Below, in pieces: positions 26,065-57,795 of a DNA stretch of 64,000 bases. Made by a program: the position numbers and the translations under genes. The DNA is taken from positions 222,827,803-222,891,802 of the forward strand of contig OV884059.1 in NCBI GenBank assembly GCA_930367215.1, in the 5' to 3' direction. The first letter of the stretch is position 1. Each line of letters begins with the position of its first letter. The notes beneath the pieces were generated by a model, which was not told the origin of the DNA, ran no database searches, and saw only the letters and a program-made list of their open reading frames with translations. The DNA comes from Pollenia angustigena (lineage: Eukaryota; Arthropoda; Insecta; Diptera; Polleniidae).

Positions 26065-26345
26065 GTATGACGTGCTAAATTCCCAGTTTTTCATATTTGA
26101 TAAATACACTGAAATTTATTGTTGAGGAAAAGCAAGCCTCTATGCGCTTTTCGCCGGTTGCTTACACCAGCTCATCAGGAAACCTTTTCCAAAGATTTTA
26201 GAAAAGCCAAAAATAACAAATAAAACCTTAAGCGAATAAGAGTTATAAACACTCTAAGTCGTACCTGTAACAATATCAAAGCTTAATCAAAACACCAACC
26301 ATAAACAGTGAGTTTATCTTTTCTTACATCCCCCTACAATTGGTT
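26065..26345 (-). repeat. Hammerhead-bearing repeat (family D), copy 1
   Basis: Shares CTAAATTCCCAGTTTTT, GAAATTTATTGTTGA, ATCAGGAAAC, TTTTAGAAAA and ...ACAATAAACAGTG in order with copies at 31871-32202 and 57487-57795. The most diverged of the three. Function of the repeat as a whole is inferred to be a Penelope-related non-autonomous retroelement because of its ribozyme motif. Confidence 0.7.
26136..26184 (-). ncRNA. Hammerhead ribozyme-like motif, copy 1
   Basis: On the minus strand: CUGAUGA, stem II GCUGG/CCGGC closing a UGUAAGCAA loop, GAAA, then AGCGCAU and A at the expected cleavage position. Stem I pairs GGUUUC, before CUGAUGA, with GAGGCU, after the site (C-G and A-U pairs plus G-U wobbles). 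Stem III is a near-palindrome of 8 nt, too short for a hairpin, as in the minimal hammerheads of Penelope-like elements that cut as dimers. Confidence 0.7.
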
Positions 26346-26374
26346 GGGTTCTTTCCGACTAGAATTGTAGTTGT

Positions 26375-26419
26375 AAGTGGGTTAAAAGAAAATTTAAAAA
26401 ATTTTCTTTTAACCCACTT
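26375..26419. repeat. Perfect 21-bp hairpin
   Basis: AAGTGGGTTAAAAGAAAATTT, a 3-base AAA loop, then the exact complement ending AACCCACTT. It lies just beyond hammerhead repeat copy 1. Confidence 0.9.
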
Positions 26420-26439
26420 AAGAAAAGTTGAACCTTAAC

Positions 26440-27150
26440 ATTTAGGAACATTTTTTAAATTTTAAATTGGCAAATATAATTTTAATAAACAAAATTAAGG
26501 CAAAATAATAAAACTTTCGTCATATCAATAAAGTTTTGTCAAATTTACAACATTTTCTCATATAAACAAAACTCTGTATAAAAAAAACTGTAATATAAAT
26601 TTTTTTTGTCAATCTAGAAAAACTTAGTAAAATTAGAACAATTAGCACAATTTTTGTTATTGTGTTTTCTTTTCTACAAAAAGTGTGACACTTTATTTAG
26701 AAAAAATGCAATTTGGTGTCTGTTTCTTAAAAATTTTGCTCCCGAAAAGGGTGAGTTTTTTAGAATAAAACAAGTAAATTACTTAATTATATTAATTATT
26801 AGTAAATTTACAAAATTTTTTAAATAAAAAAAAAAAAACAACTTTGTAAATATTACAAAATATTGCTTAATTTTTTTTGCTGTTGTTTCAATGTAAATTC
26901 CCAAACGAAAATTTTTATTTTCATTTCAAAAACAGGCAGCTAGTCGAACAAAAAAAAACCTTATTTAAAATAACAAAATTAAGGCAAGTTTGCAGAATTC
27001 AGTCAAATAAACAAAACTTTGTCAAGCTTCCAAAATTTAATTGATGTAACAAAATTTAATCGAGTTAACGCAATTTTTGTAAAATTTTTAGTTTTGTTTA
27101 AATTAACAAAATTATGTAATGTGTATCAGCAAAACTTAGTTAAATAAACA
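26440..27150. repeat. AT-rich low-complexity tract of AACAAAATT words
   Basis: Degenerate repetition of (TTAAATTA)ACAAAATTTTGTC-like words without fixed period. Similar tracts lie at 31180-31860 and 32210-32660. No coding. Confidence 0.5.
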
Positions 27151-27640
27151 AAATCTATATATAAATCGGCTAAGGCAAAACAGTTAAGAACACTTTCCTC
27201 CTCTGTATGCCAACCGATTTGAACAAAATATGCACCATTTGAAAGAAATTTACTCACAGAAGGGCACAATATATATTTTATTAAAATCTGTTCAATAATT
27301 TCAGAGTTATAAGCGTTTAAAATTGCTACTAACACAAATGCAAAATAAATAAATAAAAATTTATTTTCAATTTATTTTCAAATAACAAAAAACTAGGGTG
27401 ATCGATTATTCGACATTTTTCAGAAACCGGTTTTCGAATATTTCGACTATATATTTCTTATGTATAAATCAGGCCAGGCAAAACAGTTAAGAACGCTTTC
27501 TTCCTTTGTTTGTCATGCGAACCTTTTATGGGCAGAAAAAAGGGGAAATACGGGAAACTAAATTTCTTTCTTTTACTTTTTTGTGCTTTATGTGATAATA
27601 AATAAATAAAAATAAATAAAAATTAATCAAGCTCGAGGCC
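27150..27640 (+). repeat. Repeat family A fragments
   Basis: GGCAAAACAGTTAAGAAC occurs at about 27172 and again at about 27477, each followed by a TTTCYTCCT stretch. The second copy continues into GGGGAAATACGGGAAACTAAATTTC, a family A hallmark. Confidence 0.55.
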
Positions 27641-27679
27641 AGTGTTTTTTCGTAAATAAAAATTCCTTTTTTATTTGCT

Positions 27680-27720
27680 TCCAATATTTCGATCTTCTTT
27701 GAAGATCATCATCAGGGATT
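27680..27720 (-). ncRNA. Hammerhead ribozyme-like motif in the Penelope 3' region
   Basis: On the minus strand: CUGAUGA, one unpaired U, a perfect 7-bp stem II GAUCUUC/GAAGAUC with AAA loop, GAAA, then a palindromic AUAU and U at the expected cleavage position. Stem I is UCC/GGA. A very short palindromic stem III is what is described for hammerheads of Penelope-like elements. Position after the endonuclease stop also fits. Confidence 0.75.
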
Positions 27721-27932
27721 TCTTTTCCATAAATTCAAGAACAAAAAAATACAATTATTACAAACATATAAATAACAACCACATATATGGACAACAACCA
27801 CATTGATTTTGTTTTTTTAAATTGTATGTTTACAAAATATATACACACTCACAGTGAATTTTTATAAACACAAAAACTTAAAACTTTGTGGTTCACACAT
27901 CGACATCTAGACTTGCACTAAACTTAAAATCC

Positions 27933-28820
27933 TTATTGCAGATTGATCTTTTTTACTAAACCACTGTAGTTATTGGCACACGAACACTCTACGTCGCTCT
28001 TAAAGTTTACACTCGTTGTTGTTGTTATGATGTGAAGCATTTCCAGCATATATCGACGTTTGTAATTCGGCTCTGTTTGTAACACACTAACATTATTAAA
28101 ATCAGGTGAGTGTTTGTTTTTGACACAGTGGTTCACAAGTGCTGTTTTTGGTGTGTCTCTACTGAGTTTTAATTTTTGATCCGATTTATGGCCTGCGATT
28201 CTAGTTTTGAGTTTGTTTTTAGTGGTTCCAATGTACACCTTATCACAACTTTCATTTAAATTTCCAATACAGGGTATATTATATATAACATTTGATTTAT
28301 CCATGTTCAGAATTTTATCTTTTGTTTTGCTAAATATTTTTGAGATATTGTTGTCCGTTTTGTGTGCTATTCTTAAGTTTTCACCATTAAACAATTTTGA
28401 TTTTTCAAATTTCTCTGATATTTCGGGTACATATGTGAGGAATTTGTAACTTTTTGGTATGTCAGTAACTTTCGAACTATTTGAATTCCTATTTTTATAG
28501 TCACGAATAAGGTTATTCGTGAGTTTTTCAGGAAAATTGTTGTCAAGAAGGATGATTTTAATTTTTCTTATATTATTTTTGTGGAATTCCAAGTCACTCA
28601 GATTTAACACTCTTATTATTAAGTTTTCAGCCGTATTAATGATTACTCTTTTTGGATGTTGTGAAAAGAAGTTAATTATTCTACCGGAAGAGGTTGGTTT
28701 TTGGTAGCATTCCATTCTTAAGATGTTCCCATCTCTGATTACAACGGTATCCAGATATGGTAATCTAAAATTTGTGATAATTTTTAAATTTTCTATAATA
28801 TTGAACTCAGAAACATAATA
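27933..28820 (-). pseudogene. Penelope-like RT C-terminus plus GIY-YIG endonuclease
   Basis: Before the first methionine (28715) the frame is open and reads RLPYLDTVVIRDGN. Counting from that methionine: YQKPTSSGR at 4-12, NFFSQHPKRV, FHKNNIRKIK at 44-53. The GIY-YIG domain follows: VIYNIPC at 143-149, VYIGTT at 160-165, arginine 172 and histidine 176 in KTRIAGHKSD, NHCVKNKHS, and the likely catalytic glutamate 225 in MLEMLHI. The domain nicks target DNA for retrotransposition. The 260 residues have no stops, so decay is light apart from 5' truncation. Confidence 0.9.
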
Positions 28821-28822
28821 TT

Positions 28823-29292
28823 CAGTGTTCGAAAATAAACACTAAATATCGTTTTTTAATGTTCGGTTCGGTAGATTTGTGGAAAACACAAACGCTAATA
28901 GTGTTTGTGTAGAAAATCATTAAAAAAATAACGTTTCCCTGTTAGTCATCTTTCGAACACAAAAATATTATTGTTTTTATCAAATACAACAAAAGATGTG
29001 AACATTTAATTCCGTTCGGTTTCTTTTGAAAATCCACAAACTTCAATGTGTTCGGTTAGGCTGATTAATGTTCGTCCCTTTTGGCTGGTAAAAAAACATT
29101 ATAGAACATTAAAATATAAAGTTTTTCTACAGTATCACTACAAATGTTCTGTTTTTTTTTAACGAAGAACTGAACATCATATAATGTTCGGTTCTTTCTT
29201 GAAAATAGTTATGAACGGTATTAGGGGTTGTGTTTGTCTACACAATCACTAAAAAAATAGATATCGTTCCTGGGTGTGTGAGTCGAACACTG
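28823..29292. mobile_element. 470-bp hAT MITE with perfect 8-bp target duplication
   Basis: Terminal repeats CAGTGTTCGA/TCGAACACTG; flanks ATAATATT at 28815-28822 and 29293-29300 are identical. TGTTCGGTT-like words recur through the body. No transposase frame. It sits at the truncated 5' edge of the Penelope-like element. Confidence 0.93.
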
Positions 29293-29300
29293 ATAATATT

Positions 29301-29700
29301 ATAGATGTAGGATCCTGAGTGAGTGATAACCTATAAGATAAAAAATGCTGGTATTTTTTGTTTTTCGCCTGGAACTTTTTTGAATTTTCGTTAATATTCG
29401 ACCTATAAAGATAAAATTATACATTAAACTGGGTGAACAAGAACATGTAAGGGGGCGCTTTTTGGTAATTTTTCGTTCAACAGCTGGTACTTTGATTATT
29501 TTTCGTTAATATTAGACATAGAAACATAAAATTAAACGTGCAACGTCCTGAGTGGATGACAATACATAAAGGAGACTTTTTGATACTTTTTTGTTGTTTT
29601 TCAATTGGTATTTTTTATATTGAACTTACAAAATTAAATTAACTCACGTAGAAGATAAAATATGAACCGGAGGTTGGTCCCTCGCCAAATCGATCCACTT
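29301..29700 (+). repeat. Repeat family A, copy 3
   Basis: Two successive units with CGTTAATATT(C/A)GAC, ACATAAAATTAAAC and CCTGAGTGGATGA, as at 7400-7470 and 43300-43420, ending CCAAATCGATCCACTTTGA. Confidence 0.6.
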
Positions 29701-30236
29701 TGAAGGAAAAAATAAATGCTCGAAACAAATAAATTCATATATACTTAGATGAATAATATTTTCTTCATATTTACAAAAAAAAAATATGGTCGAATTTTGA
29801 CCATTAGGCGAACACTAGTTCGCAAAATTAAGGTAAAGGGCGGGGAGTACTGCAGTTTCTGTCAAGCAAGTTTACAAAAAACAAAAAGGACGTTTTTATA
29901 AAAATTAACGTTTCTATGCATTATCTATTAAAAACATCCAGTTTTGACAATATTTTCCATATAAAATTCAAAACTAATGTTTACGTTCGAAATTGTTGGA
30001 TATGGGCATTTCCGTCAAAAGGTCCACCGTGACCGACAATTTAAAAGTTATTAAAAGCTGATTATTTTACGATATTGTTATAGAGAAATATTTAGATTTT
30101 ACTAATTTTATAAATTTACGCATAAATTTGTTCACTTTGATGAACAATCAGACTGCAAAGTTGTGCAAACGCAATTTCTTATATGTGAGAATGTTTTATT
30201 GTATGTTTTCTTTAATATTTATCTCTTTTAAAAGAG
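29700..30236. other. AT-rich spacer, nothing recognised
   Basis: No frame or repeat structure that I can support. Confidence 0.35.
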
Positions 30237-30503
30237 GTGATATTTGATAAAAATTATTCCAAAAAAATGTTCTTACATGGTCTGTCATCTAAGGAAGAGT
30301 TCAAAGAGAAATATGTTACTCGGATTAACGGTAAATTTTTTTTTAATCACTGTTCAGTTAAATTATTATGGAAAAAATTCACGTTCGAAATGTCACGTAT
30401 CGACCCAGATTTTGGCTTAAAAAAAGAATATACAGAAGATTTAAGAATCAAACCAAGACGTTTTAATGTTACATTGCTACGTGCAATTCTGAAAGTAGTT
30501 TGA
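30237..30503 (+). CDS. Unrecognised 88-codon open frame, possibly a fragment
   Basis: Starts with ATT as first codon in the reading used here; the first ATG is a few codons in (KMFLHG). The protein is basic with EEFKEKYVTRINGKFFFN and FEMSRIDPDFGLKKEYTEDL, which looks more protein-like than nearby AT-rich frames. I recognise no domain. A poly-T run encodes KFFFN. It could be a host exon, a transposon fragment or chance. Confidence 0.2.
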   Translation: MIFDKNYSKKMFLHGLSSKEEFKEKYVTRINGKFFFNHCSVKLLWKKFTFEMSRIDPDFGLKKEYTEDLRIKPRRFNVTLLRAILKVV

Positions 30504-30889
30504 CTAAAAAATTGTGCCAGGTTTCGCTGAATTACGCCTTTTTATAAATGGCCAAAAAAACAAGTCCTATTTTTTCACGTTCGAACCGCTACTTCTTTTG
30601 CCATTATCTTTGACCTAGAATCGCGCCCTCCATAAACTTTAGCATAGATAACAGTGCTTTCTTAGTGCTATAATTTAAGGGTTAAGATAACTTAAAAATA
30701 CTTGTTGTTTAAAATGTTATTGCATTTTTGATGCGTACGACTTTCACGTTCAACACTTTGGATTTACCCATATGCAGAAAATTTTTTTTTTGAAGTGAAA
30801 TGTAAAATATTAAAAATATCGCACCCAAAAAGAGTTTATTAACTTGAAATTTAAAAACTTTCAGTAGAAGTAAATCGCTTTTTAATTTA

Positions 30890-30986
30890 TGGGTCGATTA
30901 CGGTTGGCAATAGCAATAAAGATAAGTTACCAGCAGCGAAATTGGGCAACTCAACTTTAGTTGAGCTGCCATCCGTAATCGATCCA
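30890..30986. mobile_element. 97-bp MITE with TTA target duplication
   Basis: TGGGTCGATTACGGTTGGCA at the left pairs with TGCCATCCGTAATCGATCCA at the right (two mismatches). Flanking TTA at 30887-30889 and 30987-30989, the 3-bp duplication typical of PIF/Harbinger. A second inverted pair (CTCAACT/AGTTGAG) lies inside. Confidence 0.8.
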
Positions 30987-30999
30987 TTAATTAAAGCAT

Positions 31000-31870
31000 A
31001 ATAAACAAATTTTTTTAACCAGCCGTATCATTACTGACAAGTAGACAACATTGCGTCATAATTTTTCAGCTATTAGATATAAATATTACGTGTAGATTTT
31101 TTCCATAAAAGTGAAAAAATAAAAATTTCGAGTTAATACCCTCTTGTTGATCAAGTGCGATATGAATTTAAATTTTATTAAAGAACAAAGTTTTTGGTTT
31201 TAGTTGAATTTTTTCAATACTTTTTTTAAATTAACAAAGTTTTTGCTAAATAACAAAATGTTGTAATATTAACAAAATTTGGTAAAATTAAATAAAAATT
31301 TTGTCTAATTAGCAAAACTTAGCTAAATTAACAAAATAGAAACAAATTTTTAAAATTGTGACTTATTTAACAAATTTAAACAAGCTTAATTTTATTTGTT
31401 AAATTAACAAAATTGAGTTAGTTTGCAGATTCTAGGTTAATTAACAAAATTTATGGCCGTTTTCTCATTACACGATTATCACTTTTCCCAACGAAAAACT
31501 GCACATTAAAGAAATTTGGTTTTCTCAATGTCTAATTTACTTCTATTCTGTCGCAAAGCTTACCAGCACTCATCTACCAATTAGTTATTTACTTTTATTT
31601 GCCGTACAGATCAATTCAATCAGCTGACTCCCAGCTTTAACATGTATTTTGAGAGGTGTTGCCAGCTGAAAACAATATTTTTTGTCGGTATATTGAGAAA
31701 CCCAAAATCGTTAACCGATAGTTTATCGCTCTAATAAATTTTTGTTGACATTAAGTAACAGCCAGTTTATCGATACATTGAGAAAATGACCATTAGTCTA
31801 ATTAATTGTTTTTTGTCAAATTTACCAAATTTAGGTTAATTAATAGAATTTTGTCAAATTAAAAAAAAAA
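31000..31870. other. AT-rich spacer with AACAAAATT words
   Basis: 31180-31440 has degenerate AACAAAATT repeats as at 26440-27150. 31450-31790 has ordinary composition and no recognisable feature. Confidence 0.4.
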
Positions 31871-32202
31871 TCAAAAGATTTTGTTATTCGTGCTTAATTC
31901 CCAGTTTTTATTCTTGATAAAAACACTTGAAATTTATTGTTGATGGGATAAGCTATTCCTATGCGCATTTCACTGGTTGCTTAGGCCAGATCATCAGGAA
32001 ACTTCATCCATAAAGATTTTAGAAAAACTAAAGATATTAAACCAAATAAAACTGTTAAACGTATAAGACTTATAGCAACAGTTCTACTTGTAATAATATC
32101 AAAGTTTAAACAAAACACATCAACAATAAACAGTGGGCTTATCTCATCTTACATAATAATAATAAAAACTGGGAATTAAGCACGAATAACAAAATCTTTT
32201 GA
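31871..32202 (-). mobile_element. Hammerhead-bearing repeat (family D), copy 2, with 40-bp inverted ends
   Basis: 31871-31910 (TCAAAAGATTTTGTTATTCG...) and 32163-32202 are exact reverse complements over 40 bp. The other two copies have only one of these ends. The inside matches copies 1 and 3. Whether the second end is part of the element or came from a head-to-head partial copy, common in Penelope-like insertions, cannot be settled here. Confidence 0.8.
31955..32002 (-). ncRNA. Hammerhead ribozyme-like motif, copy 2
   Basis: On the minus strand: GUUUC, CUGAUGA, stem II CUGG/CCAG (with a U-U closing mismatch) around CCUAAGCAA, GAAA, UGCGCAU, A, then GGAAU. Stem I pairs GUUUC with GGAAU (3 Watson-Crick plus wobbles). 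Stem III would be the perfect palindrome AUGCGCAU, implying a dimeric form. Confidence 0.75.
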
Positions 32203-32450
32203 AATTAAAATTTTGTATTCCCAAAAATTTAAATTTCTTTTTGATTAAAAAAAAATTATTGTCAAATTAAAAAAATTTTGGCAAATAAACAAAATTGATA
32301 AAAAAATTAAATTAACAAGATAAGGACAATCAAACAAACACGACTAGCCAAATTACCAAAGTTACAAAATTTTGTTAGTTTTACAGAATTAAGTTCAAAC
32401 AAAGTTTTGTTAATTAAATTAAGCTAAATTAACCAAATTTATTCAATCTT

Positions 32451-32640
32451 ACAAAATTTTGTTAAATTAACAAAATTTGTTCAATATGACAAAGATTTAT
32501 TAAATTAACATAATTTATTCAATCTGACAAAATTTTGTTAAATTAACAAAATTTGTTCAATATGACAAAGTTTTGTTAAATTAACATAATTTATTCAATC
32601 TTACAAAATTTTATTAAATTAACAAAAATTTAGTCAAATT
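32451..32640 (+). repeat. 76-bp tandem repeat, about 2.5 units
   Basis: ACAAAATTTTGTTAAATTAA starts at 32451, 32527 and (with one change) 32603. Each unit is itself two related ~38-bp halves. AT-rich and non-coding. Confidence 0.8.
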
Positions 32641-33139
32641 AAATCAAACTTAACTAAATGTTTATAAGCTAAGGAAAAAAAGTCAAACTTATAATAAAAA
32701 TAACTGTGGGATGTTTCATATTTTTTTTTAAATGTGTTGCATGAAAAACACGTAAATATGTTGCATATTTTACTCACTGTTATATAAGGTGTTCATTAGG
32801 GCTATAAACAAATTTTTGGCATAGTAACACGGAGTGGCCAATAATGTTTTAGTAATGAAAACACCTGTCTGCCGTCGTTTTGCGAAGAAAACCTCACGCA
32901 GGGAAGCAAATTTCTAAAACCTTCCAAGAAATTTTGAACCGCGATAAATTGTAAACCGTAGGAAAATTTTTAAATCTAAAGCAGTGGATAAATTCCAAAA
33001 TAGCATTTAAGTGATACGTATCGGAATATATACAAATATCAGGTGTATATTTTTAAAATTTCCGTGAGATAAAAATTGTTGTTTTCAAACTTCAACTCGA
33101 TTGCTGCGCGAACTTTTTTTGACAATCCAAAAAAATTAT

Positions 33140-33790
33140 CATATTTATACCCTTCACCACAGGTGGTGCAAAGGGTATATATAAGTTGGTCATTCCGTTT
33201 GTAGTTTCTATAATATTGATGTTAGACCCTATAAAGTATATATATTCTGGGACCTTATGAGGAGCGAAGTTGATTTAACGATGTCCGTCTGTTCGTCTGT
33301 CCGTTGAAATCGATTTTCCGAAGACCCCATATATGATGGGGGCCAGGTTATTAAACATTTATGTCACATATGGTCCGGAATTGTTTGCTATTGAAATTCA
33401 GCAAGATCGGTCTACAAATGGCTGAGATATGAGTAAAAAACCACGACTGCCTCAAATTTTTTCCTTTAAGGGTCAAATTAGACGTGACATTACCATACCA
33501 ACACTGTATTACCAAAACGACATAAACATACCATACAAACCTACTATATACAAGCTACTATGTCGTATTAAATTTTAAGAATAAATCTTAGGTCCCTAAT
33601 AAACTCCCTCCCTGAAATCACTTAAAAAAAGAAAGGTCCCATACAGATGCTTATATCCAGATAATTTTCGGCACAAAAAATCGTATAAGCGGGTCCATGA
33701 TTGCCCATTGCTCTTTAAAAGGGTTTGGGGTGACCATGTCTTTGATTCAATATACTCAATACCTTTCTGGTCGAAGTTTTATTTGATTTC
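33140..33790 (+). repeat. Repeat family B, copy 2
   Basis: Starts with a terminal hairpin TATACCCTTCACCAC/GTGGTGCAAAGGGTATA (33147-33182), then CCTATAAAGTATATATATTC and GATGTCCGTCTGTTCGTCTG. The copy at 47160-47855 has a similar hairpin and core on the opposite strand. No coding. Confidence 0.65.
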
Positions 33791-33799
33791 TTTATTGGA

Positions 33800-35553
33800 T
33801 TTTCCTTGTCTTTATAAAATGCTTATAGAAGACAATTAAGTAACACTTATAAAGTCTAAATTAAGGAAATCCATTTCGGCTCTTTCACTAACTAAGCACC
33901 AAACTCACCGATTAAGGATATATTATTAACCATATAGTTAGTTCAACTATTTATTGCACTTTGTCAATTCCTTTTTATAAGCACCTTCTTTCCCCAGAGG
34001 GATATTCATGCAAAAAGTGTCATAAATTATTATTAACAATTTTTGTTACAATTAAATTTTAATTACCGTTTTTGCTAAAACAACAATTTTTTATTATAAA
34101 TGAAACGAAAAATCTTTAAAGAAAAACAAATTTAATTGGCCAAACGAAATATTTATAATTCCATCAAGTGGGCTTGTATTCACATAAAATGAATTTTAAC
34201 TAAAATTAAACGACTCAAAGTAAATTTTGATGTATCTTCATTAAACATTACACCCACACACTCACACACACACTTATGTGCATTAATAAAAGGGGAAAAA
34301 TGAATAATGTTGCCAAATAAAAATTAATTTTTAAATAAATGTGTTTATGAATGATTTAAAAATAATTTTTTTCTGTTTAATGGTGACATTAAAAACAGTT
34401 TTACGACTTCCTTGAACAGAGCAAAAAAAAAAAAAAAAGAACTGAAACAAAAACGAAGAAGTCTTTTCGAACAGATGTTCAGCACATGAAAATTTTAAAA
34501 GAAAAATGTTAAAATTAAAAAGAAAAAAAAAATCCAATAAAATTATTATTAAGTGAAAATGAGAGACCGACTAAAAAGAAAAGGAAACAGAGTGTACTAG
34601 GGAAAAGCAATAATTGCTAAAATATGAGAAACATTTATTAGAAAAATTTGTTTTAAACGAAGGAGCTAAAAACGCTAATGAAAAAGCCAACAAAAACTAA
34701 TTAACAATTATGAAGTGTCTGTTTTTGTATTTTTGCTCTTATAAAAAGTCAAATGAACAAAAGCAGAACAGCATCATAATTTTAGGTCAAAAGGCTAAAA
34801 AAATGTTGTCTTTTTAAAAGTTTAAGTTGCGGTCTGTAAAAGGAACTAAAAAATAGAAAAAAAAAAAATTTAATTATATCTTAACGTTTTAAGAGGAGAA
34901 GACAGTTTAATTTGAACTAAGTTTTGTTAACAGTATTTAACAAATAAAATCTTATTGTCTTCTTTTTTTATCATAAGGAATTGTGTAGGAATTGCACAAT
35001 GGGTTGTTAAGAAAGCAAATACCACTTCATATCTGCAAATATTTTAAAATTGTAATGAAATATAATTTTTATTTCTGATAAATAGCAAATATTTTTAAGT
35101 ATTTAAGTACGGATTCTTGATTCAAGAAAGTCTTTACCCACCGTTCTATTAAAACCGCTTCGGATTGATTTAAGTACGGATGGATTGATTTTTGTTTTGA
35201 GTGTATATAAATTTAAACGGTGCTTAAAATGCTGCAATTGCTTCTTATTTAATTGCTTTGTAAAACTTTGGCTGCTGTTTTCAGAATTTTTAGGAAGCAG
35301 TAGCAAAAGGATTAAAATATTTTGTAGCTATCAAATTACACTGGTCTACAAATTTGAAAAAAGAAATTGGCCGCAGAAACGAAGCATGATTTTTAACTTA
35401 TCTGGGTGCGCTGAATTCGAATCTGGCATAGAAATTAGTCTATCACATCTAGTTCATTTTTTATCGCATGCTGGCAATACTGTAAAACAGTCAATACTGA
35501 TACTAAAATTTCACAATTAATAGTTTGACAGAAGCCCACATTCATTCTAAATC
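33800..35553. other. AT-rich spacer with a host-like repeat near 35090-35190
   Basis: No gene recognised. 35095-35185 (TACGGATTCTTGATTCAAG...ACCGCTTCGGATTGATTT) is an uninterrupted copy of the sequence that the solo LTR splits at 50680/51760, so it is a dispersed repeat and a useful empty-site reference. Confidence 0.5.
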
Positions 35554-35561
35554 TTCATAAA

Positions 35562-36738: not shown

Positions 36739-36749
36739 TTCATAAAAGA

Positions 36750-37364
36750 AACGTTTTAGCATGCTCCCTGACATCGTGTGCTACTGATTAAAGCTATTTT
36801 TGCTTTGTGTGGGGTGAATATTTGCTTGGACAAAAAAGAATATAATTTCAGAATCATTTAAATATGCAAGTTTACATTATTTTCGGTTTTGCAATCAGAA
36901 ACTTGGACAAATTGTGGACACCGACAATGTTTTGCATTTTCTACCGGGCATTTAGATTTTTTTTCCAACAAAAAAAAAAAAACTAAGTACAGTGAGCGAC
37001 GAACAATGAGAAGATTAAATGAAAATTGAGAGAAATTATCAAGGATTTTGGGACAAAAGCATGCTGCGAGACAGACTGGACTCTAATACGTGAAATCGAA
37101 CCAACAAAATACAAACGACATTCAAATTACGCCATTCCCTTTTGAAAATTCATCGATTTTTAAATAAACTAGTTATTTTTTATTAAAAAAAAAACGATTA
37201 AAAACATTTCTTGTATCTCGAAAACCTGAGGTGATAGAGAAAACCCAATCACAGATTCAAATTCAGCCCACCAAAATACCCTAGGAAAGATATTTAATTA
37301 ATCTAGTCCAAAACCTTGTTGGCTAGCGTTATTATAATGTGCAACAAAAAAAAAAAAAAAACAT
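36750..37364. other. Spacer, nothing recognised
   Basis: Contains A-runs at about 36970 and 37348 and no supported gene or repeat. Confidence 0.35.
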
Positions 37365-38394: not shown

Positions 38395-38422
38395 CTGGCG
38401 GCGATGACCCGAATTTTGTCGC

Positions 38423-40170: not shown

Positions 40171-40171
40171 C

Positions 40172-43568: not shown

Positions 43569-45140
43569 TTAATTCCCTGTGGAATATAGGGCCGCAACAA
43601 ATGTGTTCCATTGTATTCTATCAGTGGACATCGTTTTCATCTCATTCCAGGACAGGCCATGCTCATGCAACTCGTTCTCAATTTGTCGTCTCCAATTATT
43701 CGCAGGTCTACCAGGTCTCCTGGATCCTTGGGGGTTATATTCTACAGACTGTCGCGTTAAATCATGTGCTGGTTTTCTCATTGTGTGTCCTAGCCAACTA
43801 AATTTACGAAATCGGATATTCATACTTAAAGGAATTTGATGGGTTAAATTCCACAACTCCAGATTTGATATCGTGGCAGGCCAGAATATCCTCTCAATAC
43901 GCCTGAGGCAGCGGTTTACAAAAGCTTGCATTTCACTCATTCCACGGCTCGAAATATTCTAAGTTTCACAGCCATACAGAAGCACAGATTTTACATTGCT
44001 ATTAAAAACCTTGATTTTGGTGTGAGTTGAGATATTTTGAGATCTCCAGAATTTATTAAGCGTGCCATACGCTTGCTTTGCCTTACACAGTCTATTCTGT
44101 ATATCTTCTTTGATGCCCCCTGTTTTTGAAATTATACTCCCCAGGTAACAAAAGATTTCAACATCGTCAATGGGTTGGCCCGAAAGCTGAAAGTTCTTGT
44201 TGCATGAAGAATTTATGCGCATTGATTTGGTTTTGTTGATATTAATTTGTAATCCCGCTTTCGCTGCACGTGTAGCAAAGGTTTGAATCTTAGATTGCAT
44301 GCTAGAGAAGCGGTGGGATAAAAGACAGACGTCATCTGTATAATCAAAATCTTCTAACCTATCATGAAGGCCCCACGAAATTCCATGATGCATAATCATG
44401 CAGTGGTTCATAACTACGGCAAGTACTATGTTAAACAGTAGTGGAGACAAAACACAGCTTTGACGAACACCTACGTTTACTTTGATGGGGTTGCTTGCTG
44501 TACCCTCTTGAAGTATCGAACAAAATGCGTTGTTGTATAGCTCCTTAATAAGATTAATTATCTTCTCGGGAACTCCTCTGCATCTCAGAGCTTCCCATAT
44601 TGCCTTGTGTTGTAGTGTATCAAATGCACGTTTACACTCAACGAACACTAATGCCCGTAATTTCTACTAAAAGAAAGCTGGCCGTGTTCGTACCTAACAG
44701 TTACCTTTACCTATTTCAACGTTTATTTGGCCTTCGTGGTTTTACCTTCAGTTTTCCTTTAAAATATGGTAGCATTTACACCACAGGTTTCTATACACAG
44801 CTAGATTTCTTTTTGTAGAAATTACGGGCATAAGTAAAGGGCTGAGCGCCATACAACCGACTGTTCCACAATTACCCTCAGGTTGTTGATGTGATCAATA
44901 CATGACTTGTTTGGTCTAAAGCCCGCTTGTTCTGCAATACGATTGTAGAGGATGTGGGCTATGATTTTGTTTACACTATTCAAAAGAGTAATACCCCTCC
45001 AGTTGGACCAATCTTGCAAGTTTCCTTTTTTTGGGAGTTTTATGATAAGGCCTACTCTAGTATTATCCGGAATTTTCTCGTTTAACCAAAAATTTTAGAT
45101 CAAGGGTTCTAGTAACGTTGCTGCTTGGGAAGATAGAATT
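43569..45140 (-). pseudogene. Reverse transcriptase of the second LINE, broken
   Basis: Order: IIKLPKKGNLQDWSNWRGIT, AEQAGFRPNKSCIDHINNLR, VWRSALYL (then the MITE), FVECKRAFDTL, VGVRQSCVLSPLLF, FDYTDDVCLLSH, CYLGSII, LLYGCET, nonsense TAG at 43959-43961, then FVNRCLRRI, WLGHTMRKPAHDLTRQ and GRPANNWRRQIENEL to a natural stop at 43569. The catalytic box reads YTDD instead of YADD and RQSC replaces the usual RQGC. Both suggest decay of catalytic function before or after insertion. Confidence 0.85.
44652..44830. mobile_element. 179-bp MITE with TAA target duplication, inserted in the LINE
   Basis: TGCCCGTAATTTCTAC at the left and GTAGAAATTACGGGCA at the right are exact complements; weaker pairing extends further in. 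TAA at 44649-44651 and 44831-44833. Removing element plus one TAA rejoins the LINE reading frame between SALYL and VFVE, which confirms the ends. The 3-bp TAA/TTA duplication points to PIF/Harbinger. Confidence 0.93.
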
Positions 45141-45149
45141 TGGTAAAAA

Positions 45150-47155: not shown

Positions 47156-47159
47156 AAAA

Positions 47160-47855: not shown

Positions 47856-47859
47856 AATA

Positions 47860-49847: not shown

Positions 49848-50692
49848 CTTAATACCAAGGTTGGTAACCGAAACGAATTTCGGAATCGATACTGGTATTA
49901 AACTGTTTGATTTTTCGGTATCAATAAACAGAAATAAAAACACTCTGGATAATTTAAGTTTTTTATACTTTCTTTAAGTACGAATCGTACTAAAAAATTC
50001 AAGTACGCATAACGCTAAAACGTACTTAAAACAATCCTAAATGGGATCACTTTCGAAACTCAATTCCGGAATTTCTTAAAATAAAATACAAAATTCTTAA
50101 AACAAGCAAAAAAAAAAAAAAAAATAAGATTAAACTTTTCGTTGGTAGTGCCACTCTGAGAGTAAAATAACAAAGAGAGCGTTTTAATCTTATTTAACTT
50201 ATGAAAGTTTGTGAAAGACACTTTAACAACACCACACAATTAGTTTAAATACGATTTGCTTGTTGTGTGTAGAAACAACAAAAACAAGAGAACAATTGAG
50301 AACTTTTGCTTTTCATTTAGTTTATATTTTCAGTTTTATGTGTACATTAAGTTTTTAAGGTAAAAACCATATCGGAGATGATAGTGGTGTTTAAAAATTT
50401 TAAATTCTGTAAGGTGTAAAACGGGTAAGAAAATCAATCATAGTAAAATTTTGATTATAATTTAACCTTGGTTTATTTCGAGTTCGAATTCGGGATTTAA
50501 TCAACTTTATAATTCTTAAATCAAGCTTATTTTGAGAGAGATTCAATCTTAGTTTTACTTAAACAATCTCATTTTCGCATTATTTCAACTTGAAATCGGG
50601 ATTGAATATGGATAAGTTAAGTATTTCGCAATTGAAAATCCGTACTTGAATCAATGTTTCTATACTTGATTCAAGAAAATCCGTACTTATCG

Positions 50693-51754
50693 TGTAACGT
50701 GACGTTACAAACTAACCCTATATATACATATAATATTAACATCATAAAGTATAAGTAACCCAACACCTTGAATACCCTTACTATTTAACTTACTACTATG
50801 AATACCCTTACTGTTTACCTAAATAACATTTTCACAGTATAAGTCTCATTTAGTTTATAAATAGACAAGGTTTTGCTCAGAACAAACAGAGTAGATATTG
50901 ATACTAACCCCAGTATTTACGCTTCGTAGTTAGCACTTTTCATTGTTTGCCGTATCTAGTCGTATTTAAACGAAGTAGTTATTCGTCTTACCCGATTACC
51001 TCGCCCTCGAATTCCGTTGGTGCCCAAGTAAACCGAACCAGTATTCAGCCGTATTTTACCCGAACACCTCGCTCTCGAATTCCGTTGGTGTCCGAGTAGT
51101 TTAACCAGTAGTTAGTCATTTTACCCGAACACCTCGCCCTCGTATTCCGTTGGTGGCCGAGTAAACCGAACCAGTACTTAGTCGTATTTTACCCGAACAC
51201 CTCGCTTTCGAATTCCGTTGGTGTACGAGTAGTTTTACCAGAAGTTAGTCATTTTACCCGAACGCCTCCCCTGGCATTCCGCTGGTGCCCGAGTAAAACC
51301 GAACCAATATTTAGTCGTACACCACGCTCTCGCATTCCGTTGGTGCCCGAGTAGTTAGACCAGTAGCTAGTCGTATTCACCCGAACACCTCGACCTCGAA
51401 TTCCGTAAATCAAACCAGTAGTTTGCTACAGCTTACATAGCCCGTAATAACCGAATCCGTTTCCAGTCTCTTTACCAGATCATTCCCGTTTCATAGCCCG
51501 GTTCCAGTGCACCCCCGGCCAACGCGTCTCAGCCCCGTAACAGTTCCCGTCCGCAGCCGCACCGACTCATCGAGGACTGTCGTTAGTTCTAAGTATTAAG
51601 CGTTGATTAAGATTTCGTAAATAAAGCTTTGTTGAAATTATTGTAGCGAACATACACGAAAACATCCCGTGTTTCATTTCAAAGGAAGCAGACCTTCGAA
51701 TTGACCCTGGACAGACTGAGTCATACCTTAGCTGGGAAAGTAAACTGCGTTACA
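50693..51754 (+). mobile_element. Solo LTR, TGT...ACA, about 1062 bp
   Basis: Starts TGTAACGTGACG and ends GCGTTACA. TATATATACATATA near 50720 and AATAAA near 51621 are candidate promoter and poly(A) signals; the GC content is far above the surroundings. The empty version of the site is visible at 35110-35185. Flanks ATCG and ACCG match at 3 of 4, a possible 4-bp duplication. LTR length and TGT/ACA ends suit BEL/Pao or another LTR class; not decidable without internal sequence. Confidence 0.75.
50995..51412 (+). repeat. Minisatellite inside the solo LTR, alternating ~60-bp units
   Basis: Phrase CGAATTCCGTTGGTGCCCGAGTA recurs seven times or so (e.g. 51008, 51070s, 51140s, 51210s, 51275, 51335). 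Units alternate between GAGTAAACCGAACCAGTA and GAGTAGTTTAACCAGTAG, giving a ~120-bp higher-order period. Confidence 0.8.
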
Positions 51755-51904
51755 ACCGTACTATTAATACCGCTTCGGATTGATTTGAGTACGGATGGAT
51801 TGATTTTTCTCTAAAGTGTACCTGGATTAAATTATTAGGGGTGTGCTGGAAGTCGAAAACGGAAGTGGTTTTTAATACAGTTTAAATATAATTTTTATAA
51901 TTTT

Positions 51905-53330
51905 TGTTATAATATTCTTTTATTAAATGCTTTCATTTTACGTTTTCGATTTCCTGAACACTCCTGTATGTGTTCAAACAAAACTGCTTCGAGATCATAT
52001 TTTCCATACAATTTGACATACAAATTTGTCGTAGAAAGCTGTCGTGAAATACAATCGATTTTATTTTGATAACGTGTTTTTCTTATGCTCTCACATATAG
52101 ACACTTTTTTTCCAACAACAAATGAAAGTTAGATATTAAAACAATGAAAGGAGAGAGAATTTGAAGTAACTGCCGACGTTTTTAATGTGGGCTTTAGGAT
52201 TTTTGCCCGAAGTCGAAGATTTAATTCTATCTGAGCACTGAGTCTTTAACTTCAGGCAGAAATCCTTATGCAGATATTTTAAACTTCGGCAGTAATTTCA
52301 AATTCTGTAAAATTTTTTATTTTCTTTTGTTTTTGATTTTCTGTTGTATGGAAATTAATGAAAGTATGGTAGCATTGTTGGGAGAATTAAGGCTCAGTTA
52401 ACCGGGAGTAACAGTATCGTTGCAAATCAGCTGCTTTATTTTGTTGTATGTACAGCTATTAAAACGATTGTTGTTAGCAGTAAGATGTTACATCTCAATC
52501 TGTAAGAAATATGTATATTGGTCTTAAACATAACGGTAAGGTTAAGTTACTATTACTCCCGGCTAACTGAGCCTAAATGATGAAACAGAACTGGGGCTGA
52601 ACGTTTTTTTACATGCAGTTTGACATAAAATTATGCCAGAGAATGCGGTCGAGAAATAAAATCAATTTTAATGATGAAACAGAACTGAGTCTTCAACTTC
52701 AGGCAAAAATTTTCAAGCCCATAATTAAAACGTCGGCAGTAACTTCAAATTCGCTCTCATTTCTTTCGTTTTCTTTTCTTCATATTTTTCTTTGTTTACA
52801 AAATGTATGAAATTGAATGAAAGTATGGTAGCATTGTTATGAGAATAATTGTATTTATGTGAGAGCATTAAAAAAAACGTCCTCAAAATAAAATTGATTT
52901 TATTTCTCGACCGCATTCTCTGGCATAATTTTTTGTCAAACTGCATGTAAAAAAACGTTCAGCCCCAGTTCTGTTTTATCATTTATTTTGAGGACGTTTT
53001 TTCTAATGCTCTCACATATAGACACTTATTCTCTTAACAATGCTACCATACTTTCATTCAATTTCATACATTTTGTAAACAAAGAAAAATAAGAACAAAA
53101 GAAAACGAAAGAAATGAGAGAGAATTTGAAGTTACTGCCGACGTTTTAATTATGGGCCTTAAAATTTTTGCCTGAAGTTGAAGACTCAGTTCTGTTTCAT
53201 CATTAAAGTGTCTTTATGTGAGGGCATTAGAAAAAAACGTTCTCAAAATAAAATCGATTTTATTTTACGACTACAACTTTCTACGGCCAATTTTTGTGTC
53301 AAATTGTATGAAAAATATGGTCTCGACCCA
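51905..53330. repeat. Block of repeated inverted copies
   Basis: Several segments recur in both orientations. GAAAGTATGGTAGCATTGTT occurs at about 52361 and 52818 and reversed at about 53037. A CGACCGCATTCTCTGGCATAAT block is at 52905 and reversed at 52630. ACTTCAGGCAAAAATTTTC is at 52695 and reversed at 53165. CTCACATATAGACAC occurs at 52090 and 53010. It is a complex foldback structure within the hAT-like element. Confidence 0.75.
52391..52573. mobile_element. 183-bp MITE with TAA target duplication
   Basis: GGCTCAGTTAACCGGGAGTA at the left and TACTCCCGGCTAACTGAGCC-type right end pair over ~26 bp with two mismatches. TAA at 52388-52390 and 52574-52576. PIF/Harbinger-like by its 3-bp duplication; unrelated in sequence to the MITE at 44652. 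Confidence 0.88.
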
Positions 53331-53777
53331 GTTCTGTTTAAACAATCAATTCTGTTTGAACACTATTTGTTATATCGGTATCTGTTTTACTGCCGGTATC
53401 GGCATTAATAACGGTATCGGTTGCCAACCTTGCTAAATACACAATAAAATCCCAGTTTCTAAAACATGAAAGAATTAAGTCTGAAATTCAAAACATCTGG
53501 AGGAGGGGTTATGAGTTGCTGAACAGTAAAAAGAATGTTTAATAGGATTGTTAAAACTTTAATATTCTCTCGGTTACATACACACATGTGTGCGTGTGTG
53601 TTTATTTTTTTTGCTATAGACCTTATTTATATTGACCTAAAGGACAAAAAAAAAACAATTTTGTGGGATTCATGCAAAGATGGGATTTAAAGTAAGTTTG
53701 AAATTAAAAAAATTTATTTCAAATAAACTGATTTTATCTCTAGAATAGGGATGTACGATTATCGATTAATCAAAGGT

Positions 53778-54545
53778 ATTTTTTTTTACTTTGAGCCAAC
53801 ACTCAGGGGATGCCCCCTGCTAATGCAATGCATTGTGTTGGAATTAGGAAAATAGGTTATGGGGGGAAGGAAAGAGGGAGTAGTGTTTGTGGACATTTAA
53901 TTTGAATTTTTTCCAAATTGTACCCGACAGTTCGACCAAGAAACGAATTTTCTCTATAATGCGTTGTGCGATACATTGGACAATCGACAACAAACGGATG
54001 TGATCTGCTGGCAAGGCGAATACTACGGGCATGCACCCGCGCCTCAGGGATGAGTTCGGCCATCTCAGCTGAACATCTTCCGTGGTAATATCGATAGAAC
54101 AATGCCGCTCAACCCACATTTCGACGATGCTCCAAACAGTCAATAGAGCTGGATACCCTACTGTCATTTATGAGCTTCAACGCACTCCTTTGCACCCGAT
54201 CCAGAAGCTTCAAGATAGACCTTAAAGCACCTGCACAGATATGGGAGTTGTATTCCATTTTCGGTCGGATATAGGCAGTATAAATGGTTAAGAGATCAGA
54301 CGGAGTGAAGTAGTTCTTGCACCGTTTTAAGAAAACAAGTAACTTGAATGTTTCTTTCGACACTTGAAAGACATATTGGTTCCAACGAACATCAATGAAT
54401 TTTCATGCCCAGAATATCAAGAGTGTCTGATTCCTCAATAGATATACCTCCCATACATACGGATGACGCTGACTCCACAAGACGTCTGTGGGTCAACATG
54501 CAACATTGAGTCTTACGAGCATTAAAATCGAAAGATTATTTATTT
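53778..54545 (-). mobile_element. LINE fragment (family L3), 3' part
   Basis: Minus strand with an A tail seen as a T run at 53779-53788. It shares coding and 3' UTR sequence (CATAACCTATTTTCCTA, AATGCAATGCATT) with the plus-strand copy at 58715-59351. Confidence 0.8.
53850..54540 (-). pseudogene. LINE reverse transcriptase C-terminal region, frameshifted
   Basis: Across frames: FNARKTQCCMLTHRRLV, IEESDTLDILGMKI, then an open stretch SKETFKLLVFLKRCKNYFTP, DLLTIYTAYIRPKMEYNSHI, LDRVQRSALKLINDSRVSSS. A frameshift follows near 54110, then FYRYYHGRCSAEMAELIP, RSHPFVVD and YRENSFLGRTV. This is the post-catalytic part of a LINE ORF2 (jockey/CR1-like wording, by memory). The catalytic YADD lies in the missing 5' part. 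Confidence 0.8.
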
Positions 54546-54549
54546 CATT

Positions 54550-55115
54550 CTCAATCAAATCCGACGTTTCGTTGGTTTTTGTTTCCAACTTTTTCAGGGA
54601 TTGAGTTTTTTTTTGTAAGTTAATTTAATTTAATTTAAGTAATCAAACTTAAGATTAATCGATTAAAAAAATTAATTTGTAATTGATTGGCCGATTACTG
54701 AATAATAACTGAATAACTTAATGTTTGATTAATCAATTCGAATAATATTGATTAACCGATTTATCCTGAATTCCTAATTAAGATTTTGAGGAAAGGAAAT
54801 TTAAAAATTTTTGGAGTACCAGGTCGGTAAGAATGAAATCTTGTAGGTACTTTATAACACAGTACTTTTTAAGAAGATATTTTTTAATAAAAAAAAAATT
54901 AAATAAAAAAAAATTTTGCAAAAAGTACTTTTAAAAATATACCAATTGATGAAATACTATTTAAAAAAAAGACGTCTAAAAAACGTTTCCAATTATCACT
55001 TTATTTTTTAAAGGTACTTTTTCTAAAAAAAAAGAATTCTTAAAACGGGTTGCTTTTTTACAAGATGAAAAACCGCATTTTTCAGGGTTTAAAAAACCAA
55101 AAACTATCGAACAAA
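54550..55115. other. AT-rich spacer
   Basis: Repeated GATTAATCGATTAA-like words at 54650-54770; otherwise nothing recognised. Confidence 0.4.
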
Positions 55116-55117
55116 AA

Positions 55118-56143
55118 ACGGCTCCACAAAAAGCCCCCCAATGAAATAACGCCCAAAGGAGAAATGAAATATTTACCAATTTTTTTCATATATTTTTGGG
55201 TGTTATTTCATGTGAAATAACTCCCAAGTTTTTTGGGCCGTTTTTAATTTTTTTTTTTGGGAATTATTTCATTCCTCATTTGGGGTTTTCAAATTATGAA
55301 ATAATCTCCAATGAAATAACACCCAACAAATTTTTAAAATTCAGAGCTTCTTTCATAGCGTGTTTAATTTGGGTATTATTTAATTTTTTATTCGGGGGTT
55401 ATTTCATTTTTAAAGCTGTTGGTTTTTGGGGGTTATTTAATTTTATTTGGGGTTTATTTCATTTGCTTAGTTTGATCTTTTTCCTTTTTTTTTTTTTTGA
55501 GAATTCAAGTAACGGTTTTTTTGGTCAACATATGAGTACAATGCCTGTTGAGTGGAGTTTTTGTAAAACATTAAATATTTTCAGTTGTGCATCGAAGTTC
55601 GGAGGCTTTACATCATCTCGTGTTAATATTTAAAAAAATGGAATTCGAAATTGTTGGTGGAAGACGAAGAAATAGCAATTTGCTATATTCTTTAAGTGTT
55701 AAGGCCAAACGTAAAAGGCAAATTGGGTAAAATAACTGCAGCAATATTTTTGAACCGAATATATCCTTATTATGAAGTAGACGCCTGCGGGCCTCCACAC
55801 GATTCATTTCAATAATTTTGCGACTTTGCTGTTGGTCCATATTGACTTCATGAAATCCTTGGTGAAACTGACTCTTTTATGAATTTTGGGCATAATTTCA
55901 TTTTTGTTGCTGATGGGGTTTATTTCATTGGGGGTTATTTTATTTTCATCATTGGGTGTTATTTCAAATGAAATAACTTCCATATATTGGGGGTTGTTTC
56001 GTTTTCGTTTTGGGGCATATTTCATTTATTTTTCGATGTTATTTCATTCACTGCTTTTAGGTGTTATTTCCTATTTTTTGGGGTTTATTTCATTGGGGGT
56101 TATTTCCTGGGCGTTATTTCATTGGGGGCTTTTCGTGGAGTCC
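55118..56143. mobile_element. Element whose inverted ends are TTATTTCATTGGGG minisatellite
   Basis: Left edge CTCCACAAAAAGCCCCCC and right edge GGGGGCTTTTCGTGGAG are inverted, each followed inward by TGAAATAACGCCCA. From there, arrays of (T)GGGGTTATTTCATT-like words fill about 300 bp at each end, in opposite sense. The middle (55490-55860) has ordinary composition and a minus-strand open frame starting MDQQQSRKIIEMNRVEARRR without recognised domain. Confidence 0.7.
55613..55840 (-). CDS. Unrecognised 75-codon open frame in the minisatellite-ended element
   Basis: Starts with ATG; basic N-terminus (MDQQQSRKIIEMNRVEARRRLLHNK), then leucine-rich. It is the only non-repetitive part of the element and so could be a scrap of its protein. 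It may equally be chance; no motif known to me. Confidence 0.2.
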   Translation of the reverse strand: MDQQQSRKIIEMNRVEARRRLLHNKDIFGSKILLQLFYPICLLRLALTLKEYSKLLFLRLPPTISNSIFLNINTR

Positions 56144-56199
56144 AAAAAACTAAAATTTGTGTACAACTTTTGGCTTGACAGCGGCTTTTTACCTTTATA

Positions 56200-56659
56200 C
56201 TCTGTTCACACTTGGGTTTTTCACAGCCGTTCACATTACCTTTGAGAGTATTAAGATGACAGATGATTAAGAAAAAAAACACAACAATCAAATTTATATT
56301 TCTTAAAAGTATTAAAATGGATAAAAACACTTTTATAAAGTTATCAGAAGATAATTTTAAACATATTATTAATGAAATTTTGAAAATTTATGAATTATTT
56401 AAGGAACAAATAAAAACATTAAGCAGATATCGTGGTCGGTTGTACACGTTCATGTTGGCCGATTCTACATTATTCACAGTTTGAGGAATGTTCAGGGGAT
56501 TCTATGTGAGTTATGAAGTGATTTCGTTGAAATAATGTCAATTTGAAGTGATTAAGAAATCACTTCAATGTATGGTTAATCATCTCGATGTTGATGTGAT
56601 TAGAGCTTAATCACGTTCGAGTTGCTTAAACGCGTTTAAGAACCCAAGTGTGAACATAG
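56200..56659. mobile_element. 460-bp MITE with GTTCACACTTGGGTT ends
   Basis: CTCTGTTCACACTTGGGTT at the left and AACCCAAGTGTGAACATAG at the right pair with one mismatch. TA on both sides (56198-56199, 56660-56661) suggests a Tc1/mariner-type duplication, though TA is weak evidence here. Internal ATTAAG/CTTAATCA words are abundant at the right. A 56263-56484 open stretch inside shows no known motif. Confidence 0.75.
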
Positions 56660-56661
56660 TA

Positions 56662-57184
56662 TTAATGAAACAGAAGTAAAAGCAACAGTTTTTTTTGGCC
56701 AGTGACAATTTAAGTGGCAGAAAAGGCAGTTTTTCTACTTTGACTGCAGTTTTTTAAACGCTGGTATTTTTAGCCCAAGGGCAAAATTACGGCTTTCGAT
56801 ATCGATCGAAATTTCACTTTGAATTGTATTTTATTTTCAATCGATATCGAATACTGTAATTTGATTTCGGGATACTTTTTCAAAGAGTGCAAAAAGTTTT
56901 TTTTTAAGTAGTTTCTTTTGAACAAAACATTAATAAAAGGGTTATTTCCTAAAATTGTAAAATTTGGAAAAATTTTAAATTGTTCTTTTAAGTGCTTTTT
57001 TTATTCCCACATGATTTGAATTTAATTTTTGTGTTTCTTGACACGTTTTATTTATTTATTTTTCTGTTTTGCAGACATGTTTATTTTCCAAAAAAAAAAA
57101 AAAAAAAATATATTAACAACTTTTTACTCTTAAAACCCATAAAAGAAGAAAAACAAATCACATTTCTTTACTAAATTCTTACAG
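56662..57184. other. Spacer with a short repeat shared with 12720-12770
   Basis: 56705-56766 (GGCAGTTTTTCTACTTTGAC...) is a reverse copy of part of the repeat near 12740. 56800-56860 has TCGATATCGA-type words. The rest is AT-rich. Confidence 0.45.
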
Positions 57185-57486
57185 CTTAAAATCAGGGTAG
57201 TCAGATGTGGCGATTTTTCGCCAAACGTGGCGATTTATAAACCTAATTGGCGACGCAATTTTGTGTTTGGCGACACGGCGATTTTTTTTTGGCGAAATTA
57301 AAAAAAGTTGGCGATTATTTTGGCGATATCTAAACCGCATTTTATGTTTTTTTTTTTTATTTATATGAAAAAATGTATGAGTACTGGCTAAGTTTTTTCT
57401 TGTAAGTTTTAACAAATTTTTAAATCGCAATAGGAATGCGATTGTTTTAGGTGATAAATTGATAGTATTGCCAGATACATTAGACT

Positions 57487-57795
57487 GAAAACTTAAAAGA
57501 TTTTGTTATTCGTGCTTAATTCCAAATTTTTATTATTGATAAAAACACTTGAAATTTATTGTTGATAGGATAAGCTATTCCTATGCGCATTTCGCTGGTT
57601 GCTTAGGCATCGTCAGGAAACTTCATCCATATAGATTTTAGAAAAACTAAAGATATTAAACCAAATAAAACTGTTAAACGTATAAGACTTATAAGCAACA
57701 GTTCTTCTTGTAACAATATCAAAGTTTAAACAAAAACATCAACAATAAACAGTGTTTATCTCTTCTTACATTCCCCACTACAATTGATTGGAATT
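57487..57795 (-). repeat. Hammerhead-bearing repeat (family D), copy 3
   Basis: Nearly identical to copy 2 from AAAAGATTTTGTTATTCGTG to ...CAACAATAAACAGTG, then CTTACATTCCCCACTACAATTG as in copy 1. It lies inside the hAT-like element, so it inserted later or was carried along. Confidence 0.82.
57576..57620 (-). ncRNA. Hammerhead ribozyme-like motif, copy 3, stem II damaged
   Basis: On the minus strand: GUUUC, CUGACGA, UGCCUAAGCAACCAGC, GAAA, UGCGCAU, A, GGAAU. Core residues, stem I and the palindromic stem III are kept, but three to four bases on the 5' side of stem II are missing relative to copies 1 and 2, so this copy is probably inactive. Confidence 0.65.

Follow-up and report, generated by a model that had tools for sequence, protein, structure and literature searches.

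Hammerhead-like cores and family D in the window

We analysed a stretch of 64,000 nucleotides (nt) from Pollenia angustigena (contig OV884059.1, positions 222,827,803 to 222,891,802 of the forward strand), here called the window, which holds copies of a repeat, family D, and part of a Penelope-like element (PLE). From its sequence, D appears to be a very abundant retrozyme-like family whose insertions carry Penelope signatures. A preliminary description of this DNA had reported four hammerhead-ribozyme-like cores in Penelope-related sequence, and all four were found on the minus strand where it had placed them, with predicted cuts after window positions 27683, 26141, 31960 and 57582. They can be assigned to two kinds, one PLE minimal hammerhead (27674-27722) and three hammerheads in family D. 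The core at 27680-27720 differs in kind from the D cores, since it lacks a real stem III and has one additional U separating A9 from stem II. The features concerned are listed here; sites a and b are the two preferred 3' ends described below, and ORF stands for open reading frame.

26019..26392, minus strand: copy D1 of family D, subfamily B, ending at 3' site b
26126..26195, minus strand: hammerhead-like region of D1, of type I, with a weak stem III (A-A mismatch) and a predicted cut after 26141
27609..27682, minus strand: PLE stretch from the predicted cut to the 3' end at site a, about 74 nt
27674..27722, minus strand: minimal PLE hammerhead, predicted cut after 27683
27933..28841, minus strand: 302 codons from the 3' part of a Penelope-like ORF, in which a GIY-YIG-like motif can be seen by eye
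31873..32154, minus strand: main segment of copy D2, subfamily A, ending at 3' site a
31945..32014, minus strand: hammerhead-like region of D2, of type I, with U-U at the base of stem II and a predicted cut after 31960
32158..32229, plus strand: opposite-strand, 5'-to-5' partner of D2, unit positions 380-450
57490..57798, minus strand: copy D4, subfamily A, 5'-truncated, ending at 3' site a
57567..57633, minus strand: hammerhead-like region of D4, predicted cut after 57582, stem II lost, 3-nt deletion

The presence of hammerhead-type motifs in the window was confirmed. Stem II, which had been said to be kept in every core, is absent from the copy at 57576-57620, where 3 nt are missing compared with most members of the family and covariance model R1 marks four broken stem II pairs. 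The core at 31955-32002 has a U-U mismatch at the base of stem II, and in the core at 26136-26184 stem III consists of one A-U pair beside an A-A mismatch. A strict three-helix descriptor matched only 31955-32002 in the window, and nothing on either strand of 60 sequences simulated from the window by a first-order Markov model. It misses the other three cores because of the weak stem III of 26136-26184, the lost stem II of 57576-57620 and the near-absent stem III of the Penelope motif. Models R1 and R2, which scanned the window only, were built from the same families, the D2 hammerhead region being among the sequences used for R1, so their window scores are not independent evidence. Covariation in stem I had also been claimed (GUUUC with GGAAU against GGUUUC with GAGGCU). 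However, the proximal 5' strand GUUUC is identical in the three D copies and the 3' strand alone varies, its changes being absorbed by G-U pairs, which is not covariation.

Family D is non-coding, no ORF of at least 130 amino acids (aa) being listed in the D stretches of the window. Its units measure 461 base pairs (bp; L023), 468 bp (L027) and 481 bp (L061, subfamily B), and the GC content, taken from one unit per subfamily, is 28.6% and 32.0%. Two subfamilies were distinguished, A (D2 and D4) and B (D1), the identity being 79% between D1 and D2 and 93% between D2 and D4. Genome searches were made on the 1.37-Gb assembly of 31 contigs, in which a 25-position pattern of the D core gave 22,312 exact matches (11,240 + 11,072), while the reversed pattern gave none; the D core pattern was also without a match in viral contigs. 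D forms head-to-tail arrays: the first 100 listed places gave 43 same-strand neighbours lying at most 2.5 kb apart, and 33 of these were spaced by 440-490 bp, mostly by 469.

Some single copies deserve mention. At L079:38-908 a unit of subfamily A runs head-to-tail into one of subfamily B, a junction that hints at template switching or recombination between the subfamilies. For D4 (window about 57400-57910), the 5' truncation and both flanks are common to L002 and L003, which are the same places as L009 and L010; this copy has therefore multiplied inside another repeat.

In 25 aligned D sequences the core elements CUGANGA and GAAA, the A15.1-U16.1 pair, the unpaired H17 and the type-I order are invariant or nearly so. 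Both subfamilies retain this core together with an A/AGC internal loop in stem I, and the CCUAAGCAA loop is kept in nearly all aligned rows of both. Across the 22 distinct sequences 93.6% of stem cells pair, stem III having only one or two pairs; the alignment excludes the window copies D1 (an indel) and D4 (a deletion), as well as other copies. One-sided variation, mostly through G-U, was seen at five pairs, of which four are proximal in stem I and one is distal. Circular D folds were more stable than 60 shuffles, with z values of -3.0 and -3.2.

Insertion structure of family D

The ends of D segments were mapped in 52 loci and the window, and the site a and site b classes were set after seeing the data. 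For subfamily A (n=32), 16 of the 3' ends lie at site a, 87-105 nt past the predicted cut, and 11 at site b, 120-126 nt past it; for subfamily B (n=21) there are 6 at site a (90-94 nt) and 14 at site b (121-127 nt). Loci L009-L015 repeat the places of L002-L008 and were excluded from these counts, and loci L081-L092, which came from a query reaching site b and are biased by it, were counted separately (13 A ends, 12 of them at b). Two 3' ends are likewise found in the PLE lineages of this genome, where they lie at about 59-78 and 92-113 nt past the lineages' own cut. The excerpted report on PAc, a PLE of Anolis, has the cut at nt 26 of the ORF and the main start of reverse transcription at nt 111-118 (PMC11167929), from which we obtain 85-92 nt by subtraction.

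In the same excerpts, the tail of 30-40 bp carried by PAc is the stretch between two start sites of reverse transcription (PMC11167929). D insertions carry tails, which measure 35 bp in L022, 39 bp in L005 and 46-62 bp in others. Locus L005 comprises unit positions 423-461 followed by 1-429, and L022 positions 427-461 followed by 1-426, each spanning roughly one whole unit that starts and finishes at site a. Many of the insertions are dispersed in different flanks with variable 5' truncation. Ten of 46 subfamily A 5' ends fall inside the hammerhead region, at unit positions 287-346 (about 13% of the unit), where reverse transcriptase perhaps stops.

Opposite-strand D neighbours were arranged 5'-to-5' in all 13 mapped pairs, D2 and its partner at 32158-32229 included, and in 9 of 9 cases in the genome listing (first 100 places listed). 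PLE protein matches behave alike, since among the best scored matches all 21 opposite-strand pairs, out of 31 neighbour pairs, were 5'-to-5'. As a control we used one family of long interspersed nuclear elements (LINEs; ORF 5956-6963), for which 121 best scored matches gave no opposite-strand pair within 6 kb. In locus L018 a 13-bp direct repeat stands just outside both 3' ends of a mirrored pair. It is a clear target-site duplication (TSD), as expected from one insertion event. Excerpts of the work on Adineta vaga give head-to-head as the commonest arrangement of its PLEs and favour self-priming (PMC3846280), and for PAc both target strands are described as cut and extended in the excerpted report (PMC11167929). 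We infer that two-strand cutting and extension would directly yield 5'-to-5' pairs.

The inverted piece at D2 had to be distinguished from a terminal inverted repeat of a miniature inverted-repeat transposable element; that interpretation was rejected, the piece being a variable 5'-to-5' partner. The 5' end of D1 carries an almost perfect inverted repeat (window 26374-26420), which is perhaps a very short mirrored partner. Long D arrays with a constant spacing of 469 bp were seen at G000:C1, about 3111092-3119460 and 4180873-4185643; they switch strand once mid-array, 5'-to-5', and look young.

The Penelope-like element and its 3' end

The tie that the preliminary description drew between one motif and a Penelope-type ORF was borne out, the motif at 27674-27722 lying downstream of ORF 27933-28841. 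This ORF has 131 genome matches (from the best 130 of 7,908 first-look candidates scored), and named relatives include proteins of Haematobia, Musca, Episyrphus, Rhagoletis and Lucilia. Several genomic relatives have open frames of 825-867 aa. The reverse transcriptase domain RVT_1 was detected in all four long relatives examined, and PF01541 (GIY-YIG) in 5 of the 27 members of the homologue alignment. The window ORF itself had no Pfam match, PF01541 included, and Foldseek with its structure model (pLDDT 73.8, pTM 0.41) found neither GIY-YIG nor any other useful match.

The hammerhead motif was present downstream of the ORF in the 12 nearest loci. In 20 further PLE loci (L041-L060), hand-picked from the 131 matches to span lineages, 17 had an intact core, giving 29 of 32 PLE loci. 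RNAalifold on 14 PLE sequences proposed stems I and II, in which 97.9% of cells pair and 7 of 10 pairs are changed on both sides. The covariation score was reached by none of 500 shuffles, and structures slid along the alignment paired in 26-40% of cells, a control that favours the proposed structure because this was derived from the same alignment. The 14 sequences were 13 distinct ones from a pattern demanding an intact core and L050 added by hand; L043, L047 and L048 were not among them. We take the window motif for a minimal PLE hammerhead like those already published; as a structured RNA it has good support. Through the RVT_1 and PF01541 of its relatives and the covarying hammerhead, window 27609-28841 qualifies as a Penelope-like element on sequence grounds.

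Minimal hammerheads of PLEs have reportedly been described by Cervera and de la Pena in 2014 and by Lunse et al. in 2017. The motif at 27674-27722 has nothing unusual compared with them: it has the same CUGANGA core, stem II, GAAA, almost no stem III and a position in the 3' region of a PLE. A departure from the published kind was seen in L043, L047 and L048, where CAGANGA replaces CUGANGA (U4 to A) with stem II pairing intact; in L047 this variant adjoins an open frame of 825 aa. The variant suggests that the PLE structure may outlive catalysis or serve beyond it.

When the D sequence ending at site b is compared over its final 15 nt with the end of the window PLE lineage, 13 of 15 positions agree for subfamily B and 12 of 15 for subfamily A. 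No other place in the D unit is as good against this lineage (0 of 444 for B, 0 of 424 for A); when all nine PLE lineages are considered, 2 of 424 other places equal the A value. BLAST of the D unit against the 32 PLE loci found no body homology beyond D copies or pieces near PLEs in L039, L044, L050 and L054 and a pair of weak matches (31 and 38 nt) to L050 and L048. A common stem-loop around site a in D and PLEs was seen by eye only; single-sequence folds were mixed, and we do not claim it.

With neither a reverse transcriptase ORF nor PLE body homology, D is to be regarded as other than an autonomous PLE. The preliminary description had taken D repeats for non-autonomous relatives of Penelope. 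The non-autonomous nature and the connection to PLEs are upheld, but body sequence shared with the 32 PLE loci is lacking, so that the tie lies in the insertion structure and the short terminal motif and not in demonstrated descent. It seems that D stands to PLEs as a short interspersed nuclear element stands to a LINE.

Proposed mobilisation of family D

Several properties of D recall the animal retrozymes that lack long terminal repeats (non-LTR retrozymes; Cervera and de la Pena 2020, PMC7229834). As far as the excerpted text of that paper goes, they likewise carry a type-I hammerhead in a non-coding, low-GC tandem unit present in many copies. One of them, HHR_Amex2, has a short stem III (two pairs and a tetraloop) and a U-U at the base of stem II as in D, and they co-reside with PLEs carrying minimal hammerheads, as D does. 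With its non-coding tandem unit, its type-I hammerhead and a GC content under about 45-50%, D would be counted among them. PLE-type tails, paired 3' ends and 5'-to-5' pairs, which D has, are not reported for animal retrozymes in those excerpts. These features lead to the PLEs of A. vaga (PMC3846280) and to PAc (PMC11167929), which in the excerpts of both reports have, as D does, a tail of 30-40 bp between two start sites of reverse transcription past the hammerhead cut, head-to-head inverted pairs, tandem copies and short TSDs. Unlike those PLEs, D has no reverse transcriptase ORF and shares no body sequence with the PLEs of its own genome. The excerpts on A. vaga also describe tail, TSD, head-to-head pairs and integration in trans through pLTRs (PMC3846280).

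We consider it probable that D is a non-coding, non-autonomous element of the retrozyme type, with a type-I hammerhead in each unit, which uses the reverse transcriptase and endonuclease of co-resident PLEs. Head-to-tail D arrays would be transcribed, and the hammerhead would cut the multimers to unit length, perhaps as a dimer through the palindromic stem III, or aided by a protein. Circles or multimers of D would act as the template, on which the PLE protein would begin reverse transcription at either of two preferred internal sites. Its extension of both target strands would give mirrored, 5'-to-5', tailed and often 5'-truncated insertions. In this scheme the cleavage of D RNA, the RNA circles and the use of the PLE protein in trans are the steps that we infer, whereas the sequence itself shows the hammerhead motif, the arrays, the two favoured 3' ends, the tails, the mirrored pairs, the TSDs (one clear, a few probable) and the resemblance of the D 3' terminus to that of one PLE lineage. 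For animal retrozymes in general, we put at about even the chance that they are copied in trans by PLE reverse transcriptase through two-sided target-primed reverse transcription, the template being about one round of circular or multimeric hammerhead RNA. That suggestion draws on L005 and L022, which begin and end at nearly the same internal site, and the variable lengths of the D tails take some weight from it.

A number of results weigh against this explanation of D. Rfam hammerhead models, proposed earlier as a check, gave no match for the four cores: the whole window had none at the gathering score, hammerheads were absent at E<=10 from 25900-32400 and 57300-57900, and a subfamily B copy with a perfect 5-bp stem II was still not matched. 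Compensatory changes, the other check proposed, are strong in the PLE ribozymes; in D only one pair (distal stem I, U-A against A-U) is changed on both sides among the 22 distinct sequences, and since this change separates the two subfamilies it may be a single event. The count of such pairs in D was matched by 500 of 500 shuffles, and its covariation score by none of 500. Of the two outcomes named beforehand as refuting the preliminary description, the lack of an Rfam match was obtained and the lack of compensatory changes was not. In none of five D sequences was the hammerhead the fold of minimum energy, so activity of the monomer is not to be assumed; dimer action is described for amphibian retrozymes (excerpts of PMC7229834) and protein help for the hammerhead of PAc (excerpts of PMC11167929). 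Some 3' ends, 5 of 32 in subfamily A and 1 of 21 in subfamily B, lie outside sites a and b. TSDs are few: among 23 composites they are clear in L018 and probable in L004, L005 and L065, the remaining 19 being undecided or without one. The D unit of 461-481 bp exceeds the length of about 170-400 nt given for animal retrozymes in the excerpted report (PMC7229834), a figure that describes those elements more than it defines them. Insertions starting at the predicted cut showed no excess (1 of 46 subfamily A 5' ends). These insertions are thus unlike copies of molecules ending there, and circles or uncut multimers fit better.

The non-optimal fold and the lack of an excess of 5' ends at the cut would suit a situation in which D is moved by PLEs while its hammerhead-like region serves as a structural or protein-binding signal, without RNA cutting in vivo. 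We hold this to be rather unlikely, although the CAGANGA loci with paired stem II, L047 beside its long frame included, point the same way, and excerpts of the PAc report state that insertion was unchanged by ribozyme mutants and that RNA-seq ends at the cut were not found (PMC11167929). Against it, head-to-tail arrays of D units suit a self-cutting multimer. Both D subfamilies also retain the CUGANGA/GAAA/U-A core, but the copies are recent and conservation alone proves little.

It is improbable that D is a satellite which owes its spread to unequal crossing-over, to rolling-circle DNA or to segmental duplication, with an incidental hammerhead match. Such spread would be in keeping with the long runs at constant 469-bp spacing and with D4, carried inside another repeat together with its truncation and flanks. 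It is opposed by the many dispersed copies which, in different flanks and with variable 5' truncation, have the same two 3' ends, by the direct repeat around the mirrored pair of L018, and by the absence of descriptor matches from the simulated sequences. Movement of D by a LINE-type reverse transcriptase rather than by PLEs is very improbable, for while LINE-type ORFs are abundant in the genome (24,745 first-look candidates) and the terminal motif common to D and PLEs is short, AT-rich and, over all nine PLE lineages, equalled at two other places of the A unit, the two 3' ends and the exclusively 5'-to-5' pairs are common to D and PLEs, and the one LINE family checked had no mirrored pair.

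The window also contains other ORFs that look transposon-like by eye, at 15716-19745 (plus strand), 5367-7409 (minus), 43959-44663 (minus) and 22215-23399 (plus); these four stretches resemble the pol of an LTR retrotransposon accompanied by another ORF, reverse transcriptases of LINE type and a helicase of Helitron type.

In the open-licence literature we found neither family D nor any description of retrozymes with PLE tails or mirrored pairs; repeat databases were not searched. Which enzyme mobilises animal retrozymes is an open question on which D bears. In the excerpted text, Cervera and de la Pena regard PLEs as a strong candidate, both having type-I hammerheads, occurring in tandem and residing together (PMC7229834). 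Since D and intact-looking PLEs occur in one genome and the ends of D can be resolved to the base, the use of a PLE protein in trans would be testable with one PLE protein and one D RNA.

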